19,212 nucleotides of DNA. Source: Adhaeribacter sp. (lineage in GTDB: Bacteria; Bacteroidota; Bacteroidia; Cytophagales; Hymenobacteraceae). How positions within the stretch are numbered: the stretch's first letter is position 1; every line of letters begins with the position of its first letter. The notes under the pieces were generated by a model. It was given only the letters and a program-made list of their open reading frames with translations. It was not told where the DNA came from and ran no database searches. Positions 1,148-19,212 of the stretch are shown here, piece by piece. Position numbers and translations under genes: made by a program. The stretch covers positions 1-19,212 of the forward strand of contig JAQBNV010000238.1 in assembly GCA_028288395.1 (NCBI GenBank), given 5' to 3'.

Positions 1148-1954
1148 TCAGGCCGAAACTGCTTCGGGCGCTTTAACTTCCCGGATAAACCCCCGGATGT
1201 TTTCTTCCAGATTCTCAGGCTGTTGAATAATTTTAATAAAAGCGCTACCGATAATCGCGCCTTCGGCATATTTACAGGCCAGTTGGAAAGATGAGCGGTC
1301 CGAAATACCAAAACCAATTAACTTGGGATTCTTCAGGTTCAGGTCCTGTATCCGCTGGAAATATTGGACCTGTTTCGCATCACCGCCCACTTTATTCCCG
1401 GTGGTGCTCGCCGACGAAACCAGGTAAATAAACGAATTGGTTAAGGCGTCTATTTTGCGAATCCGGTCTTCAGAGGTTTGGGGCGTCACCAGAAAGATAA
1501 CGCTCAGGTTGTATTTCAAAAACAGCGGCTGGTATTCTTCTTCGTATTCGTGCAGGGGCATATCCGGCAAAATAAAACCGTCTACTCCTACCCGTGCGGC
1601 TTCCTCGCAGAATCGCTCAATGCCGAATTGCAGCACCGGGTTCAGGTAGCCCATCAGCACAATAGGTACTTCTAATTCGGGCCGGACTGCTTCTATCTGG
1701 CTGAATAGTTTCTTAATAGACATGCCGTTGCGCAAGGCCACCGTATTGCTTTGCTGAATGGTTGGTCCATCGGCCAGGGGATCGGAATAAGGCATGCCTA
1801 TCTCCACTATGTCGGCGCCGGCAGCCTCCAGGGTTTTAAGCACCACGCCGGTACTTTCCAGTTCCGGAAAACCAGCCGTAAAATATACATTCAGGAGGTT
1901 CTCACGCTTCTCCCGGAATAATTTAGTTAGTCTGTTCTCCATGGGGTTTTTCAA
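1148..1954 (-). CDS. trpA: Tryptophan synthase alpha subunit
   Basis: Cleaves indole-3-glycerol phosphate to indole and glyceraldehyde-3-phosphate; the indole is channelled to TrpB in the alpha2-beta2 complex in the cytoplasm. The 268-residue length is standard for this TIM barrel. Seen: [11 protein letters not shown] (25-35), [15 protein letters not shown] with the expected catalytic Glu and Asp at E51 and D62, and the C-terminal phosphate-binding stretch GSAFIKII. The start overlaps the last 32 bp of trpB, which points to translational coupling. A second in-frame ATG four codons later (1942) is an alternative start that also overlaps trpB. It is the last trp gene of the operon. Confidence 0.97.
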
Positions 1955-3134
1955 TGTTATCGAGGTAATTAATAATGGTAGCTAAATCTTTGTCGCCGCG
2001 TCCCGACAGGTTCAGCACCACGACATCGGTGGGCTTCAGTTCCATGCGGTGCAGGGCGGCCAGGGCATGCGCCGATTCAATGGCCGGAATAATTCCTTCG
2101 AGGCGGCTGAGCATGACCACGCCTTCCATGGCTTCGTTATCGGTGATGCTGTAGAACTTGGCGCGGCCAGTTTCCCAGAGGTGCGCGTGCATCGGCCCGA
2201 TGCCAGGGTAATCCAGACCAGCCGAAATAGAATGGGGCTCCACTATCTGTCCGTCATCGGTTTGCATGAGCAGGGTTTTGCTGCCGTGAATAATACCCAA
2301 GGTACCCAACACCGAAGTAGCAGCCGAAAAGCCGGTATCCACCCCGTGTCCGGCAGCTTCCACAGCTACTAATTTCACCTCCGGTTCATCCAGGAAATGG
2401 TAAAAAGCGCCGGCCGCATTACTACCGCCGCCTACGCAGGCTACTACATAATCGGGATTGGCGCGGCCTTCTTTCTCCAGCAACTGTTGCTTCACCTCTT
2501 CGCTGATAACGGACTGAAAACGAGCTACCATATCGGGGTATGGGTGCGGTCCTACCACGGAACCAATAATGTAATGGGTATCTTCCGGGTTGCTGATCCA
2601 ATCCCGAATGGCTTCGTTCGTAGCGTCTTTCAGGGTCTGACTGCCGGAGGTTACCGGCACCACGGTGGCTCCTAATAATTGCATCCGTGCCACGTTGGGC
2701 TTCTGCCGCTCGGTATCTATTTTGCCCATGTAAACCACGCACTCCAGACCCGCTAAAGCACACACGGTAGCGGTTGCCACCCCGTGCTGGCCGGCGCCGG
2801 TTTCGGCAATAATCCGGGTTTTGCCCAGGCGCTTGGCCAGTAATATTTGCCCAACGGTGTTGTTTATTTTGTGCGCGCCGGTATGGGCCAGGTCTTCGCG
2901 CTTCAGGTATATTTTGGCGTTAAACTTTTCGGATAACCGCTTGGCCCAGTACAAAGGCGTCGGCCGGCCGACATAATCGCGTAACAAACCCTGCAGTTCT
3001 TCCTGAAAGGCGGGCTCGTAAATTATTTCTAAATATTTCTGCCGCAACTCCTCCACGTTGGGGTACAGCATTTCGGGAATATAGGCGCCGCCGTAATTGC
3101 CGTAGTAACCGCGCTCATCAACTGAATATTTCAT
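1923..3134 (-). CDS. trpB: Tryptophan synthase beta subunit
   Basis: PLP-dependent condensation of indole with serine to give tryptophan; partner of TrpA. At 403 residues it is a normal TrpB1-type beta subunit. The PLP lysine motif HTGAHKINN (about 84-92) gives K89, REDLAHTG lies just before it, and the phosphate-binding GGGSNAAG and the substrate-loop motif HGVDTGFSA follow in the expected order. The 3' end overlaps trpA by 32 bp. The 122-bp gap back to trpF (3135-3256) is AT-rich and shows no clear hairpin or Bacteroidota promoter on the minus strand. Confidence 0.98.
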
Positions 3135-3256
3135 CTTGCTTTTTATTTTAGTTAGATGCCTGCTACCAACATCCTTAATTATTTTATTAGATTTCTGCCC
3201 TTACCCGTGAATTATATATTTGCCAGATTATCAAATAATATTTAAACTGCCAATAT

Positions 3257-3922
3257 TTATTCTTCCCGGATTTGCCGGAAAAACGCTTCTACCTTATTAC
3301 GGTCTTTCAGAGCCGGACTAATTTCGAACCGGCTGTTTATATCGATGCCCTTTAATAAAGGCAAATCTATACTTTTTATCTGCGCCGCATGCTCCAAATC
3401 AATACCGCCACTCAGGAAAAAAGGGGTATTGCCGGTGTAATTTTTCAGAATACCCCAGTTAAACCGCACGCCATTGCCGCCGTATTCCTGGCCATTGGTA
3501 TCGAACAGGAAATAATGGCAAGTGTTTTCGTAAGCCCGGAGTTGGTTAAAATCGAAAGCATCATCCACCGAAAAGGCTTTTAAGACTACCAGGCCGGCTG
3601 CTTTCAACTGCCGGCACAAATCTGGTGCTTCGTGACCATGCAGCTGTACCGCCTCCAGGTTATATTTTTTAACAACAACCAGAATTTGCGCTGCCGGTTC
3701 GTTTACAAAAACCCCTACTTTTTGGGTCGAAGCCGGGATAGCCGCCAATGTCTCTTGCGAAAGCTCCTCTCCCACGTAGCGCGCCGATTTGGGGTAAAAA
3801 ATAAAGCCCAGGTAATCGGGTTGCAAAGCCACCACTGCCTGAATATTTTCCAGCTGCCGCATGCCGCATACTTTCAGTTGCAGCGCTGTATTCTGGGGAG
3901 CGGGGTTGGCAGGGGCCTTCAT
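3257..3922 (-). CDS. trpF: Phosphoribosylanthranilate isomerase
   Basis: Isomerises N-(5'-phosphoribosyl)anthranilate to CdRP, the third step from chorismate. A TIM barrel of 221 residues. The general-base cysteine is in LKVCGMR (C19) and the general acid is D141 in LFDTNGQEYGGNG. FLSGGIDLEHA (about 159-169) and GIDINSRFE (about 182-190) are the two C-terminal phosphate-binding segments; many homologues read VSSGVE rather than DINSRFE at the latter, a form I believe is common in Bacteroidota. The ATG begins 3 bp after the trpC stop, so the two genes are tightly coupled. The first dozen residues (proline/alanine-rich) precede the conserved fold and may be a lineage extension. Confidence 0.96.
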   Translation of the reverse strand: MKAPANPAPQNTALQLKVCGMRQLENIQAVVALQPDYLGFIFYPKSARYVGEELSQETLAAIPASTQKVGVFVNEPAAQILVVVKKYNLEAVQLHGHEAPDLCRQLKAAGLVVLKAFSVDDAFDFNQLRAYENTCHYFLFDTNGQEYGGNGVRFNWGILKNYTGNTPFFLSGGIDLEHAAQIKSIDLPLLKGIDINSRFEISPALKDRNKVEAFFRQIREE

Positions 3923-3925
3923 TGA

Positions 3926-4726
3926 TTAAACGGCTGTGGTTGGTTGTAAGGCCTGAATAAAATCGGCGCATGCTTTCTCAGGCCGGCTGGTTTTCATGAA
4001 AGCTTCGCCCATCAAAAAGCCACGGAATCCGTATTGTCGCAGTTCCTGAATAGTTTCGGGTTTACCAATCCCACTCTCCGATACTTTAATGAACGAATCC
4101 GGAATGAGGGCCGCCAGTTCTTTGGAGGTTTCGATGCTGACACTAAAGTCTTTCAGGTTGCGGTTGTTAACGCCAATCGCATCTACCGCATCGCTCATGG
4201 TGCGTTCCAGTTCTTCGCGGTCGTGTACCTCCAGCAATATTTCCAAACCAAGCGAGCGGGCAAAGGCGGCTAGCTGGTTTAATTTAGGGGTTTCCAATAT
4301 GCCCGCAATCAATAATATTACATCGGCACCTATTGATTTTGCTTCCACAATCTGGTATTCGTCAATAATAAAGTCTTTGCGCAGAATGGGGCAGAAATTA
4401 AACTTGCGGGCAATTGTCAAATCCTCATTTTTACCGCCGAAGAAATGCTGATCCGTGAGTACCGACAGCGCAGAGGCGCCCGCCTGCATGTAGCCGATTG
4501 TGGTTTTCTCGACGGAGGCATGGGCATTAATCACCCCCAAAGAAGGCGACTTCCGCTTGAATTCGGCAATAATGCCATTCAGGTCCGGCCGTTGCAGGTA
4601 TTTTTTGAAGGATACCGGCTGCGTTTCGAAATAAATGCTTCTTTCCAGTAATTTAACCGGTACAATGCTTTTCCGATCGGCTACCTCGGTTACTTTATGT
4701 GCTGCAATCTGTTCTAAAATATTCAT
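3926..4726 (-). CDS. trpC: Indole-3-glycerol phosphate synthase
   Basis: Decarboxylating ring closure of CdRP to indole-3-glycerol phosphate, the TrpA substrate. A stand-alone TrpC (266 residues), not fused to TrpF as in enterobacteria. IIAEFKRKSPSLG gives the expected E55 and K57 plus the SPS phosphate motif. LRKDFIIDEYQ gives catalytic K117, LLEVHDREE gives E166, and IGVNNRNLKDF and VSESGI complete the barrel motifs. Upstream is a 139-bp gap to trpD (4727-4865) with a short imperfect hairpin near 4838-4858 (CCCGA/TCGGG arms) but no run of U that would make it a terminator. Confidence 0.97.
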   Translation of the reverse strand: MNILEQIAAHKVTEVADRKSIVPVKLLERSIYFETQPVSFKKYLQRPDLNGIIAEFKRKSPSLGVINAHASVEKTTIGYMQAGASALSVLTDQHFFGGKNEDLTIARKFNFCPILRKDFIIDEYQIVEAKSIGADVILLIAGILETPKLNQLAAFARSLGLEILLEVHDREELERTMSDAVDAIGVNNRNLKDFSVSIETSKELAALIPDSFIKVSESGIGKPETIQELRQYGFRGFLMGEAFMKTSRPEKACADFIQALQPTTAV

Positions 4727-4865
4727 TTTTATTTCTAATCTTTCGCCAGAAGTTATTAAAGCTTCGGTTACGCTATTGGATGTATTGCGACAACTCTCAA
4801 GTGGCTCTTTACAATAACTTTAGGATGGATAACGCCCGAAAAATCGAACATCGGGCAACTGAATG

Positions 4866-5852
4866 TTAAGCTATCAACTTTTTAAAGGCATTTAATGCTT
4901 TGCCAGCTTCCAGCGATTCCCGGGCTTCGGCTAAGGCTTCCGGAATAGTTAATTTAGGATTAGCACAGAAAATAGCCAGACCGGCGTTGGCCAATACCAC
5001 ATTCTTCTGGGTTTCGGTACCGCTGTTTTCTAAAACCCGCTTGAAAATTACGGCCGATTCTTCGATGGTGCCGCCGCCAGCCAACTCGGCTTGTTTAACC
5101 GTTTTAAAGCCCAACGCTTCGGGCGTTAGCAAATGTTCTCCTTCAGCCATCACCATTTTAAACGGCGAGGTCAAAGATATTTCGTCGTAGCCGTCGAGCG
5201 AATGCAGAATTACGTACCGTTTTGGGGTTTGCTGGTACAGGTAATTATATAAGCGCAGTAACTCCAGGTTAAACACGCCCACCAGCTGAAAATTAGGTAG
5301 CGCCGGGTTAACCATGGGGCCCAGAATATTGAAAAAAGTTTTAAGGCCCAGCTCTTTTCGGATAGGTCCGAAATTTTTCATGGCCGGGTGAAAAACCTGG
5401 GCGTGCAGAAAACAAATATTCGCTTCGTCGAGCTTGCGGCGCAGGTAATCCGAATCGTTGGTAAACTCGTAACCAAAGTGGGCCATTATATTTGATGATC
5501 CGCAGATAGATGACACCCCAAAGTTACCGTGTTTGGCTACTTTATAACCGGCCCCGGCCACCACAAAAGAAGCCAGCGTCGAGATATTAAAAGTATCTTT
5601 GCTGTCACCGCCGGTACCACACAAATCAATTACATCGTGGGTACCCAAATCCGGCTTGATGCACATTTCGAGCATGGCATCGCGGAACCCTTCCATTTCG
5701 GTAACGGTTACATTGCGCATCAGAAAAACGGTGAGGAAGGCAGCCATTTCGCTTTGGTTAAAACGGCCCTGGCTCAGATCTATTAAAACCTGCTTCGCTG
5801 TTTCTTTGGTGAGCGCCTTTTGCTCGATTAAATGAATTAAAATCTCTTTCAT
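4866..5852 (-). CDS. trpD: Anthranilate phosphoribosyltransferase
   Basis: Transfers phosphoribosyl from PRPP to anthranilate, the second step of the branch. About 328 residues from the ATG at 5852; an in-frame TTG nine bases earlier (5861) would add three residues and leave only 2 bp to the trpG stop. I prefer the ATG. Motifs: DLCGTGGDSKDTFN, the PRPP-binding glycine loop (near 77-90), AKHGNFGVSSICGSS (near 106-120) and FGPIRKELGLKTFFNILGP. The position after KHGN is Phe where proteobacterial enzymes have Arg; I read this as the Bacteroidota form, not a defect. It is stand-alone, not fused to TrpG. Confidence 0.95.
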   Translation of the reverse strand: MKEILIHLIEQKALTKETAKQVLIDLSQGRFNQSEMAAFLTVFLMRNVTVTEMEGFRDAMLEMCIKPDLGTHDVIDLCGTGGDSKDTFNISTLASFVVAGAGYKVAKHGNFGVSSICGSSNIMAHFGYEFTNDSDYLRRKLDEANICFLHAQVFHPAMKNFGPIRKELGLKTFFNILGPMVNPALPNFQLVGVFNLELLRLYNYLYQQTPKRYVILHSLDGYDEISLTSPFKMVMAEGEHLLTPEALGFKTVKQAELAGGGTIEESAVIFKRVLENSGTETQKNVVLANAGLAIFCANPKLTIPEALAEARESLEAGKALNAFKKLIA

Positions 5853-5863
5853 AGCAGACAATA

Positions 5864-6463
5864 TTAAATCCAGCTTTTTTTAAGCGTGATAGAGCCTTTC
5901 AGCCAGGTGCGCATAATGGTTTCGCCGTGTTCCGTTAATATAGATTCCGGATGGAACTGTACGCCTTTCACATTGAATTCGCGGTGACGCAGCGCCATAA
6001 TTTGACCCTCGCCATCAATAGCGGTTACTTCCAATTCCTGTGGCATCGTTTGGGCCACCACTACCCAGGAATGATAGCGGGCTGCTTTAAATTCGCTGGG
6101 TAATCCCCGGAAAAGTGGTTCGTTTTTAGCGTTTACCTTTATAGTAGTGGCTACGCCGTGCATTGGTTCCGGCAGGTTTAACAGGGTACCGCCAAATGCT
6201 TCGGCAATGGCCTGGTGCCCGAGGCAAACACCCAGAATCTTTTTAGTAGGCGCGTACCGCTTAATCAGTTCCGGCATAATGCCGGCCTCATCAGGCACCC
6301 CCGGGCCCGGCGACAGGAGAATATTATCGTATTCCTCTACATCATCCAGGGTGATTTTATCGTTCCGGTATACCTCCATCTTCGTTCCATATCCTAGTTT
6401 CTTAACCAGATGCACCAGGTTATAGGTAAAGGAATCGTAATTATCCAACACTAATAATTTCAT
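5864..6463 (-). CDS. trpG: Anthranilate synthase component II (glutamine amidotransferase)
   Basis: Releases ammonia from glutamine for TrpE. A class I glutamine amidotransferase of 199 residues from ATG 6463; a TTG at 6469 would add two. It begins with LVLDNYDSFTYNLVH and has the oxyanion motif LLSPGPGVPDEAG. The catalytic triad is C80 in LGVCLGHQAIAEAFGG with H171 and E173 in QFHPES. It sits 45 bp downstream of trpE and overlaps or nearly touches trpD, consistent with stoichiometric production with TrpE. In some bacteria this subunit also serves folate synthesis (PabA); operon position favours TrpG here. Confidence 0.96.
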   Translation of the reverse strand: MKLLVLDNYDSFTYNLVHLVKKLGYGTKMEVYRNDKITLDDVEEYDNILLSPGPGVPDEAGIMPELIKRYAPTKKILGVCLGHQAIAEAFGGTLLNLPEPMHGVATTIKVNAKNEPLFRGLPSEFKAARYHSWVVVAQTMPQELEVTAIDGEGQIMALRHREFNVKGVQFHPESILTEHGETIMRTWLKGSITLKKSWI

Positions 6464-6508
6464 CTTCAATAAATTTATAATTCCGATAAATCAGGAATAA
6501 ATTTTCTT

Positions 6509-7921
6509 CTAAATATCGGCTGCCATTACTAAGGCTTTGCGGAGGGCCGCCAATTTATGGTTCACTTCGTTAAGTTCCGATTCCATCACCGATTTGGCTA
6601 CCACGCCGGCACCGGCTTGGTAATACAGGCGGTTTTGGACGCTCATAAAAGAACGAATCATAATGGCATGGTTAAAATCGCCATTGAACCCGATAAAACC
6701 AATGCAACCACCATAGTAACCCCGGCCCGTTGGTTCCAGTTCATCAATAATGGTCATGGCTTTATATTTGGGAGCGCCGGATAAGGTGCCGGCCGGAAAA
6801 GTATCGGCTACCATTAGCATGGGCGCTACCTCTTTGGCCCGGGTACTGGTAACTTTAGATACCAGGTGAATGACGTGGGAATAATATTGCACTTCTTTAA
6901 AAACATCCACATTTACATCTTCGCCGTGCCGGCTCAGGTCGTTGCGGGCTAAATCTACCAGCATCACATGTTCGGCATTTTCTTTGGGATCTTCGTAGAG
7001 TTTGCGGGCCAGTTCGGCATCTTTGGCATCGTCGCCGGTGCGCCGGAAAGTGCCGGCAATCGGAAAAATACTGGCTTTATTATTTTTTAATAATATCTGG
7101 GCTTCGGGCGAAGATCCGAATATTTTAAAATTGCCGTAATCAAAATAAAACAGATAAGGCGAAGGATTGATAGAGCGCAGGGCCCGGTAGACATTAAATT
7201 CATCGCCTTTAAAACCTTGCGAAAATCGCCGGGACAACACAATCTGGAACACATTGCCCAATTTGCAATGCTCCTGTCCTTTGGCCAGTACCTTTAAGAA
7301 ACTTTCGTCGGTAAAATTAGAATCTTCGTCGTGGTTGGCTTTAAAAGAGAAAGAAGGAATATTTTTGTTGCGGATAAGGGCCTCCAGGTTAGCCAGGTCT
7401 TTCCCATCGGTTTTATCATTCAGGCTATGCTCGAAAATATATAGATCATTTTTAAAATGATCCACTACTATAACATAGCGGTAGAGTCTATAGTAGATTT
7501 CGGGTAACCCAGGATTGGCCGTTTCTTTTGGCCGGAATTGAATATCTTCGAAATAGGTCACGGCATCGTAAGCCATGTAACCGAACAAACCGTTATTTAC
7601 AAAATTAAAGTCGTGATCTTTAACGAAAAAGCTGTTAACAAAATCCTGCAGGTGTTGTACAGCCTCGCGGCGGTTAGATAAAGTGACCTGCTGTGTGGTA
7701 CCATCCGGATAATACTCACTAATAAGCCCGTCTTTCAATTCGAAGCCCCCGATTGGCTCACAGCAGATATAAGAAAAACTGTTTTCGTGGCCATGATAGT
7801 CAGAGCTTTCGAGTAAGATGCAGTTCTGGTATTTATCACGTAATTGTAAATAAATACCAACCGGCGTAACGGTATCGGCCAGCAAATGTTTGTGAAAAGT
7901 ATAAAGTTTAAACTTATCCAT
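6509..7921 (-). CDS. trpE: Anthranilate synthase component I
   Basis: Chorismate plus ammonia to anthranilate and pyruvate, the committed and feedback-controlled step. 470 residues. LLES at 36-39 matches the tryptophan-binding motif of feedback-sensitive TrpE, so allosteric inhibition is likely retained. The chorismate-binding domain shows GNVFQIVLSRRF (222-233), SSPEAQ (270-275), FPIAGT (286-291), LVDLARNDLSRHG (321-333), AGTLSGAPKYKA (377-388) and GYYGGCIGFIGF (401-412). The ATG at 7921 is preceded by about 30 nt after the attenuator terminator. First structural gene of the operon. The LLES motif and the trp context separate it from the related PabB. Confidence 0.97.
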   Translation of the reverse strand: MDKFKLYTFHKHLLADTVTPVGIYLQLRDKYQNCILLESSDYHGHENSFSYICCEPIGGFELKDGLISEYYPDGTTQQVTLSNRREAVQHLQDFVNSFFVKDHDFNFVNNGLFGYMAYDAVTYFEDIQFRPKETANPGLPEIYYRLYRYVIVVDHFKNDLYIFEHSLNDKTDGKDLANLEALIRNKNIPSFSFKANHDEDSNFTDESFLKVLAKGQEHCKLGNVFQIVLSRRFSQGFKGDEFNVYRALRSINPSPYLFYFDYGNFKIFGSSPEAQILLKNNKASIFPIAGTFRRTGDDAKDAELARKLYEDPKENAEHVMLVDLARNDLSRHGEDVNVDVFKEVQYYSHVIHLVSKVTSTRAKEVAPMLMVADTFPAGTLSGAPKYKAMTIIDELEPTGRGYYGGCIGFIGFNGDFNHAIMIRSFMSVQNRLYYQAGAGVVAKSVMESELNEVNHKLAALRKALVMAADI

Positions 7922-7951: not shown

Positions 7952-7977
7952 AAAAAGCCCAAGTGAACTTGGGCTTT
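7952..7977 (-). terminator. trp attenuator terminator (3:4 hairpin)
   Basis: On the minus strand arms AAAGCCCAAG (7977-7968) and CTTGGGCTTT (7963-7954) form a perfect 10-bp stem with a TTCA loop. The 3' arm runs into TTTTTTG then TTTT, a textbook intrinsic terminator. It lies 30 bp upstream of the trpE ATG and downstream of the leader peptide, so it would stop transcription before trpE unless the antiterminator forms. Confidence 0.93.
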
Positions 7978-8051
7978 CTTTTATACGCTATGATAAAATT
8001 ACAGGTATGCCGGGTTCACTTCTAGTTTTCTAAAAGGTGCCACCAACCAGC
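7961..8051 (-). promoter_or_regulatory. trp leader RNA: alternative 1:2 and 2:3 pairings
   Basis: Segment 2, AAGTGAAC at 8021-8014, is exactly complementary to GTTCACTT at 7968-7961, which spans the loop and both inner arms of the terminator. The pairing continues, after a 2-nt mismatch, with GG (8011-8010) against CC. Forming 2:3 therefore excludes the terminator. Segment 1, GCTGGTT at 8051-8045 (the Ala-Gly codons and the first base of the first Trp codon), can pair with AACCCGGC at 8016-8009 with one bulge, freeing the terminator. Segment 2 begins at the base after the leader UAG, so a ribosome finishing the leader would cover it, while one stalled on the Trp codons would not. The pairings are read from sequence; the mechanism follows classical trp attenuation. 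Confidence 0.85.
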
Positions 8052-8075
8052 AGTTTGTAATGTTATGTTCTTCAT
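8022..8075 (-). CDS. trpL: trp operon leader peptide with tandem Trp codons
   Basis: A 17-codon reading frame, MKNITLQTAGWWHLLEN, ending in TAG. Trp codons 11 and 12 are adjacent (8045-8040), the hallmark of ribosome-sensing trp leaders. It lies between a good promoter and an intrinsic terminator immediately ahead of trpE, and segment 2 of the antiterminator starts directly after its stop codon. No Shine-Dalgarno is visible and there is almost no room for one: the -7 box ends 7 nt before the ATG, so the message may be leaderless or nearly so. Two neighbouring Trp codons by chance in such a short frame, at this exact place, are improbable. Confidence 0.9.
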   Translation of the reverse strand: MKNITLQTAGWWHLLEN

Positions 8076-8082
8076 TATGTCG

Positions 8083-8113
8083 CAAATATAAAGGTGGTTT
8101 TGATTTATCCAAA
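8083..8113 (-). promoter_or_regulatory. Bacteroidota-type promoter of the trp operon
   Basis: Minus strand TTTG at 8113-8110, a 19-nt spacer, then TATATTTG at 8090-8083, a full match to TAnnTTTG. Expected start of transcription is about 4-8 nt beyond 8083, i.e. near 8079-8075, at or just before the trpL ATG. The stretch 8114-8263 upstream is AT-rich with no recognised operator. Confidence 0.8.
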
Positions 8114-18934: not shown

Positions 18935-19212
18935 GAAAATATAGCAAGCTGTCTTATCGCTGCGCTTTCGGGCGGAGAGGAAAGTCCGGGCAACACAGAG
19001 CATCCTACTTCCTAACGGGAAGGGTCTTTTCGGGGAACGGAAAAGATACAGCCAGTGCCACAGAAAATTACCGCCTTTTAAGGTTAACAGTAAGCAGTTA
19101 AAGATTATTTCGTAACTAGTAACTGATAACTGAAAAGGTAAGGGTGAAAAGGTGCGGTAAGAGCGCACCAGTACGTCCGGTGACGGCGTAGCTGGGTAAA
19201 CCTTAGGAGTTG
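18935..19212 (+). ncRNA. rnpB: RNase P RNA, bacterial type A, 3' part beyond window
   Basis: Catalytic RNA that matures the 5' ends of tRNAs together with RnpA. Recognised by the universal P4 strand GAGAGGAAAGTCCGGGC (18975-18991), the following ACACAGAGCA, CAGTGCCACAGAAAA, ACCGCC, GGTAAGGGTGAAA, GGTGCGGTAAGAGCGCACC (P13/P14-like), and GGTAAACC near the window end, the L15 region that pairs with tRNA CCA. The second P4 strand and the 3' end lie beyond 19212. The 5' end is placed from the -7 box and is approximate. The minus-strand frame across it is an artefact. P12 is unusual (see its own entry). Confidence 0.95.
19077..19137 (+). repeat. Heptad repeats forming the P12 arm of RNase P RNA
   Basis: Between ACCGCC and GGTAAGGG, where Escherichia coli has a short GC-rich P12, this gene has about 60 nt. 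The 3' arm is TAACTAG-TAACTGA-TAACTGA (19113-19133); the 5' arm is GTTAACA-GTAAGCA-GTTAAAG (19083-19103). The arms pair as a long AT-rich helix with a few mismatches and a loop of about 12 nt. P12 is the region of RNase P RNA that varies most, so such an insertion should be tolerated. Confidence 0.7.

Follow-up and report, generated by a model that had tools for sequence, protein, structure and literature searches.

The trp locus and the architecture of its leader

The minus strand of the window (the whole stretch of DNA analysed here, 19,212 nucleotides in length) carries a trpEGDCFBA operon in which trpE is the first gene (6509..7921) and is followed by trpG, trpD, trpC, trpF, trpB and trpA, in this order (1148..6469). 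In NCBIfam, the trpG, trpD, trpC, trpB and trpA products each have at least one match above the curated cut-off; the best family for trpE is TIGR00564, at 403.2 bits and under the curated cut-off of 517.7, and the best match for trpF reaches 165.2 bits against a cut-off of 215. At the far end of the window, on the plus strand, there is an RNase P RNA of class A (18941-19212, 149 bits) that is truncated by the window end.

The region immediately upstream of trpE (minus strand, 8113-7951) contains all parts of a putative switch: a promoter of the Bacteroidota type, a short leader ORF, mutually exclusive pairings and an intrinsic terminator. The promoter, the 17-residue leader with tandem Trp codons, the 1:2 pairing and the U-run terminator described in the first-pass annotation of this DNA are all present. 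The predicted sigma-A type promoter (8113-8083) consists of TTTG at 8113-8110 and, after 19 nt, TATATTTG at 8090-8083, and the spacing of this box places the predicted transcript start at about 8078. The leader ORF (8075-8022) has 17 codons, reads MKNITLQTAGWWHLLEN, with Trp at codons 11 and 12, and ends with a UAG stop at 8024-8022. In the unmasked fold, a 1:2 hairpin (8052-8008) covers the Trp codons, and it is found in both the minimum-free-energy and the centroid structures. Segment 2 (8021-8008), consisting of AAGUGAACCCGGC and one flanking base, pairs with segment 3 once segment 1 is masked. The latter, GCCCAAGUUCACUU at 7974-7961, comprises part of the 5' arm of the terminator, its loop and the first 3 bases of its 3' arm. 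The 3:4 terminator itself, with its U run, occupies 7980-7951, with 13 pairs identified by the terminator scanner and an energy of -16.8 kcal/mol.

The core of segment 2, AAGUGAAC (8021-8014), starts at the base that follows the UAG and is exactly complementary, over 8 bp, to GUUCACUU (7968-7961). The previously claimed antiterminator of 8 exact bp is confirmed in its length, with a correction to its position: the helix involves 1 base of the 5' arm of the terminator, 4 loop bases and 3 bases of the 3' arm, and an extra GGC:GCC pairing takes the antiterminator further into the 5' arm. Both the overall fold and this complementarity stand out from the background. For the 127-nt leader, the folding energy is -36.7 kcal/mol (z -4.10), and none of the 200 shuffled sequences is equally stable; the segment 2 region is also more complementary to the terminator than in any of 200 dinucleotide shuffles (z -4.6).

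Folding with a masked ribosome site and the proposed switch

The pairings exclude each other in folding models in which a ribosome was represented by a mask that was assumed to reach 11 nt beyond the A-site codon. In a transcript that ends at position 115, where segment 3 is complete and the terminator is not, the probability of the antiterminator is 0.96 with the A site at Trp codon 11 or 12 and 0.02 with the ribosome absent. With the ribosome at the stop codon, the probability is 0.00, a value that depends on the assumed footprint: under a mask that ends at the stop codon itself, segment 2 stays free and the antiterminator returns to 0.96. In these models, the earlier proposal that a terminating ribosome would mask segment 2 directly holds with the 11-nt footprint but not with masking that extends only to the stop.

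For the full-length leader, the terminator wins at equilibrium in every ribosome state (-20.7 kcal/mol compared to -14.9 kcal/mol for the enforced antiterminator); therefore, the decision must be kinetic. In a control with the E. coli trpL leader, for which masked minimum-energy folds were computed without pair probabilities, the states come in the same order, with the antiterminator at -15.6 and the terminator state at -20.3 kcal/mol. Because the E. coli leader behaves alike, the caveat is not specific to the window element.

As a ribosome-mediated attenuator, the element would be expected to work as follows. RNA polymerase would start at about 8078, and a ribosome would enter the leader ORF within a few nucleotides of the transcript 5' end. 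When charged tRNA-Trp is plentiful, the ribosome would reach the UAG and cover segment 2, so that the terminator would form and transcription would end before trpE. The same outcome is predicted when there is no ribosome, in which case segment 1 would cover segment 2. When charged tRNA-Trp is scarce, the ribosome would wait at Trp codons 11 and 12, leaving segment 2 free to pair with the terminator, in its loop and arms, as the latter emerges, and transcription would continue into the operon.

Conservation of the leader and alternative explanations

Most of the analysed TrpE loci have a Trp-rich leader. Two samples were combined: a family sample, in which TrpE is detectable in 195 of 200 genomes and 30 loci were fetched, and a sample of named genomes comprising the best 80 of at least 589 confirmed loci. 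Among the named matches listed, the nearest TrpE is that of Adhaeribacter rhizoryzae, with 89% identity, and Adhaeribacter is the most likely source of the window. Of these 110 loci, 109 have at least 150 nt of upstream sequence and could be evaluated (L080, with 92 nt, was left out). Leaders were defined as ORFs of 6-45 codons that start with ATG, contain W-W or W-x-W and lie within 400 nt of trpE. They are found in 105 of the 109 loci (30 family loci and the best 80 of at least 589 named ones, less L080); on the opposite strand, 1 of 109 loci has such an ORF, and in a control stretch 900-1300 nt upstream, 7 of 106 do. These loci are not independent, given that the same leader peptide is common to L003 and L032, to L019 and L033, and to L020 and L034. 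The Trp-Trp leader ORF is retained in all 8 analysed genomes of the genus. The first-pass annotation had named homologous leaders lacking conserved Trp codons as evidence that would speak against attenuation; this refutation is not borne out. Among the four exceptions, one has a GTG-start Trp leader (L099), one has a Trp leader at -530 (L069), one has a leader with a single Trp and a terminator recognised by eye (L057), and in only one was no leader found upstream of the TrpE locus (L054).

An order-wide sample gives a lower rate. TrpE is present in 46 of 59 genomes, and 30 of the 46 loci were fetched, the window's own (L002) being left out; 28 could be evaluated (L146, with 113 nt upstream, was left out). 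Leaders are found in 20 of the 28, 19 of them with a terminator and one (L156) by the leader ORF alone, and the other 8 have no Trp-Trp leader. Separately, two near-complete genomes of the family (G001 and G007, genus g2) show no TrpE match, for which the loss of tryptophan synthesis or a divergent enzyme are both possible explanations.

Many leader ORFs are predicted to start at or close to the 5' end of the transcript. In Flavobacterium, the TAnnTTTG box is reported at -12 to -5 (PMC9723704), with 4 or 5 nt separating it from the start site (PMC6847099). The spacer between the box and the ATG in the window is 7 nt, and therefore the 5' leader is predicted to be about 3 nt long; in the Rufibacter-type loci, with a spacer of 4 nt, the transcript is accordingly predicted to begin with AUG. 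Among the first units of the named loci (best 80 of at least 589), a promoter box is present within 80 nt in 69 of 76; the spacer is 9 nt or less in 35 of these 69, 10-20 nt in 19 and longer in 15. In the 30 first units of the family sample, the spacer is 4 or 7 nt in 23 and 27-29 nt in 7. For leaders with several in-frame ATGs, these counts use the one nearest to the box, which favours short spacers. Only 18 of 2338 ATGs in the control stretches have a box at 4-9 nt. Leaderless transcripts are a minority in Flavobacterium: they are reported to account for 5.5% in F. psychrophilum (PMC9723704), and 87% of an F. johnsoniae set are reported to have a 5' leader of more than 10 nt (PMC6847099). 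Leaderless leader ORFs are described in Streptomyces and Sinorhizobium (PMC8079986, PMC7298713), and, if start-site mapping confirms the predicted 5' ends, the leaderless trp leader would be a known trait in another phylum.

In Sinorhizobium, both the peptide peTrpL and the RNA rnTrpL are reported to act in trans, and the terminated RNA of the window element would be similar to rnTrpL in being short and nearly leaderless (PMC7298713). However, the N-terminus of the leader peptide differs between species, and such trans action, which would be an addition to attenuation rather than an alternative to it, appears improbable.

In 124 units, the segment 2 region was tested for complementarity to the terminator against 200 dinucleotide shuffles per unit; ORFs whose terminator did not reach -8 kcal/mol were excluded beforehand, as was one ORF formed by the last part of an upstream gene. 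The complementarity is significant (p <= 0.05) in 85 of the 124 units, including all 8 units of the genus, 29 of 30 of the Rufibacter type and 48 of 79 in the named loci (from the best 80 of at least 589), the other 31 of these 79 not rising above shuffles. None of the 7 Hymenobacter-type units of the family sample and none of the 8 named Hymenobacter units among the 79 exceed the shuffles, which may reflect chance pairing of GC-rich sequence. The best contiguous helix takes in at least 3 bases of the terminator loop in 72 of the 124 units, the window included; GUGA is present in segment 2 of 72 units and UCA in the loop of 66, with both found in 57. In most of the listed second units of the Rufibacter type and in five listed Pontibacter pairings, the helix runs into the 5' arm, and in several units from Flavobacteriales, into the 3' arm.

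Within the genus, the core GUGAAC:GUUCAC is the same in all 8 genomes, so that there is no covariation to be had at this level. Five of these genomes have a contiguous 2:3 helix of 8 or 9 bp and the other 3 have one of 6 bp; one of the latter (L005) has a shorter U run and was missed by the first terminator scan. Across genera, 61 distinct units were anchored on the UGA of segment 2 and the UCA of the loop, and the pairing partners were dealt anew in shuffles. Offset +5 pairs in 69% of the units compared to the expected 43%, a value that was reached in none of 2000 shuffles, and offset -2 pairs in 44% compared to 32% (p 0.01); offset +7 falls slightly short (p 0.057), and the remaining eight offsets are not significant. 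Two of the eleven flanking offsets covary at p <= 0.01, with p values uncorrected for the eleven offsets and shuffles that ignore relatedness, so the covariation of the antiterminator is suggestive, not strong. Compensatory changes, by which the first-pass annotation proposed to judge the element, are suggested between genera at a few flanking positions, and the core within the genus shows no variation.

These observations bear on the alternative that the hairpin does no more than terminate transcription constitutively or mark where a small RNA ends, that the Trp codons are incidental and that trpE is transcribed from elsewhere. The hairpin is very stable and prevails at equilibrium in all ribosome states, and a second promoter-like box, TACTTTTG, lies behind it at 7943-7936 on the minus strand, ahead of trpE. 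Should this box be active, trpE transcripts that begin there would escape the attenuator, and its presence slightly lowers the confidence in attenuation. However, the window is alone among the 8 genomes of the genus in having a TAnnTTTG within the 100 nt that precede trpE, the other 7 lacking it, whereas Trp-rich ORFs occupy the same place in 105 of the 109 loci and the complementarity extends to every analysed genome of the genus. A plain terminator with incidental Trp codons is, under these circumstances, very unlikely.

T-box RNAs and TRAP are known means of trp gene control, but a non-ribosomal sensor of this kind, or a tryptophan-binding RNA, acting on the same terminator is hardly credible: the own genome (78.6% complete) contains no match to a T-box, TRAP or the Trp repressor (the first-pass annotation saw no element like the former two in this DNA), the leader has no above-threshold match in Rfam, and the leader ORF and the position of its stop codon would be left unexplained. 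Ribosome-mediated transcription attenuation of the trpL type, the mechanism first proposed for this locus, is supported by the sequence elements, the masked folds, the E. coli trpL control, the leaders and antiterminator complementarity in all 8 analysed genomes of the genus, the leaders in most other TrpE loci and the further leaders of the own genome before pheA and hisG, and we estimate the probability of this reading at about 0.9. The response to tryptophan and the translation of the leader are predictions of this model.

Relationship to known leaders and serial leaders in Rufibacter-type genomes

The leader in the window does not belong to any of the Rfam families of trp leaders by score. 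The gathering scores of RF00513 (Trp_leader), RF01692 (Bacteroid-trp) and RF04312 (trpB motif) are 41, 49 and 59 bits, respectively; the window leader scores 26.6 bits with the first model and 18 bits with the third, and RF01692 is not among its matches at E <= 10 and has no match in the genome. The T-box model RF00230 likewise has no match in the window or in the own genome. The sub-threshold matches are not telling because the highest one is to STnc430, an unrelated enterobacterial sRNA (30.5 of 47 bits). Judging from its sequence, the element would work like a trpL attenuator, and it is outside these families by score.

The similarity to the E. coli trpL leader (RF00513) is nevertheless extensive and includes a Trp-Trp leader peptide, three exclusive pairings, a terminator with a U run, similar energies and even the stretch over the Trp codons, GGUUGGUGGC. 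The departure from the enterobacterial geometry claimed in the first-pass annotation turns out to be slight, given that segment 2 starts 0 nt after the leader stop in the window and 2 nt after it in E. coli. The actual differences are the Bacteroidota promoter, the location of the leader ORF almost at the predicted end of the transcript, the absence of a TrpR match and an antiterminator for which the terminator loop provides most of the pairing. A trp leader ORF at the 5' end of the transcript is also described for Streptomyces lividans and Sinorhizobium meliloti (PMC8079986, PMC7298713); these bacteria belong to other phyla, and their 5' ends are reported ones, whereas that in the window is predicted from promoter spacing.

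The notion that attenuation of trp genes is unusual for the phylum is not supported. Rfam describes RF01692 (Weinberg 2010) as a tryptophan peptide leader RNA; it is listed among the cis-regulatory RNAs of Bacteroidetes, and its consensus, similarly to the window leader, holds a leader peptide with Trp codons. Flavobacterium psychrophilum is reported to carry this leader (PMC6414381), and strong clues for attenuation before amino-acid operons in the same species, with conserved 5' elements before pheA and hisG, are described as well (PMC9723704). However, the RF01692 model ends at GGCUUGUC, and it matches, under stricter filters, 1 of 59 relatives. F. psychrophilum belongs to another order of the phylum, whereas the trp element of the window is dissected here and compared across genera. 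These findings place classical attenuation firmly in Cytophagales, where the window leader reaches no Rfam cut-off.

A serial arrangement is found in genus g6, which is identified as Rufibacter by leaders common with the named loci L033 and L034. In all 15 genomes of this genus with fetched loci (L010-L024), trpE is preceded by two Trp-Trp leader ORFs, at about -310 and -150, and the two named Rufibacter loci carry such a pair as well; the sixteenth genome of the genus (G065) shows no TrpE match. By folding, each of the leader ORFs has its own terminator (30 of 30 units), so that both units are recognised in 15 of 15 genomes, compared to only 9 of 15 under a stricter exact-repeat rule. The first leader has a promoter with a 4-nt spacer. 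The second one has no TAnnTTTG box within 80 nt, and its start lies in an A-rich context, as judged by eye in 14 of the 15 loci. One further genome (L051) also has a pair of Trp leaders. All 8 genomes of genus g4 in the family carry a single leader followed by a terminator; one of these genomes (L127) has a further GTG-start Trp ORF without a terminator. The sole apparent pair in the order-wide sample (L138) looks spurious; a locus whose leader differs from it at one residue (L139) has no pair.

Tandem trp T-boxes exist. For attenuators, a literature search, judged by titles and abstract openings, revealed no serial pair that senses a single amino acid. The closest parallel is the Salmonella mgtCBR leader, which also contains two leader ORFs in series that are reported to answer different signals (PMC3641672), whereas the Rufibacter-type pair would answer tryptophan twice; the window has no such pair.

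Taken together, these features tip us slightly towards a broader interpretation, namely that Bacteroidota use a form of trp attenuator that is adapted to the lack of Shine-Dalgarno sites in this phylum. With a leader that is leaderless or nearly so, the ribosome would load at its 5' end, and the antiterminator would nucleate on the terminator loop. In the Rufibacter-type loci, the device would be doubled, with two Trp sensors on one transcript, the first leaderless and the second starting internally in the A-rich context, and the polymerase would have to pass two gates that respond to the same signal, which could make the response steeper or wider. Such systems could serve as a test bed for attenuation without Shine-Dalgarno initiation, and the Rufibacter-type pair would make it possible to ask directly how operon control changes when one signal is read at two gates instead of one.

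Additional short ORFs are found in related loci and elsewhere in the own genome. In four Adhaeribacter-type genomes (L006-L009), there is a second conserved short ORF between the attenuator and trpE (e.g., MRLYFFFRTNYYWQG) that is rich in Phe, Tyr and Trp and is absent from the window. By eye, its core differs between these genomes mostly by changes that look synonymous, and no terminator was seen after it. The FRTNYYW pattern of this ORF occurs once in each of the four genomes and in one further genome of 200, where it is out of frame inside a 471-codon open frame.

In the own genome, pheA is preceded (L120, 469-604) by the leader MKTRTSATFYYYFFFSPSPGC and a strong terminator, likely a Phe/Tyr attenuator. 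A likely His attenuator precedes hisG (L119): a His-rich leader ORF of 37 codons, whose product ends in HGFHHLHSATGE, lies 8 nt downstream of a promoter box and is accompanied by a U-run hairpin. Given these Phe/Tyr and His-rich leaders, the attenuation device may be general in this genome.
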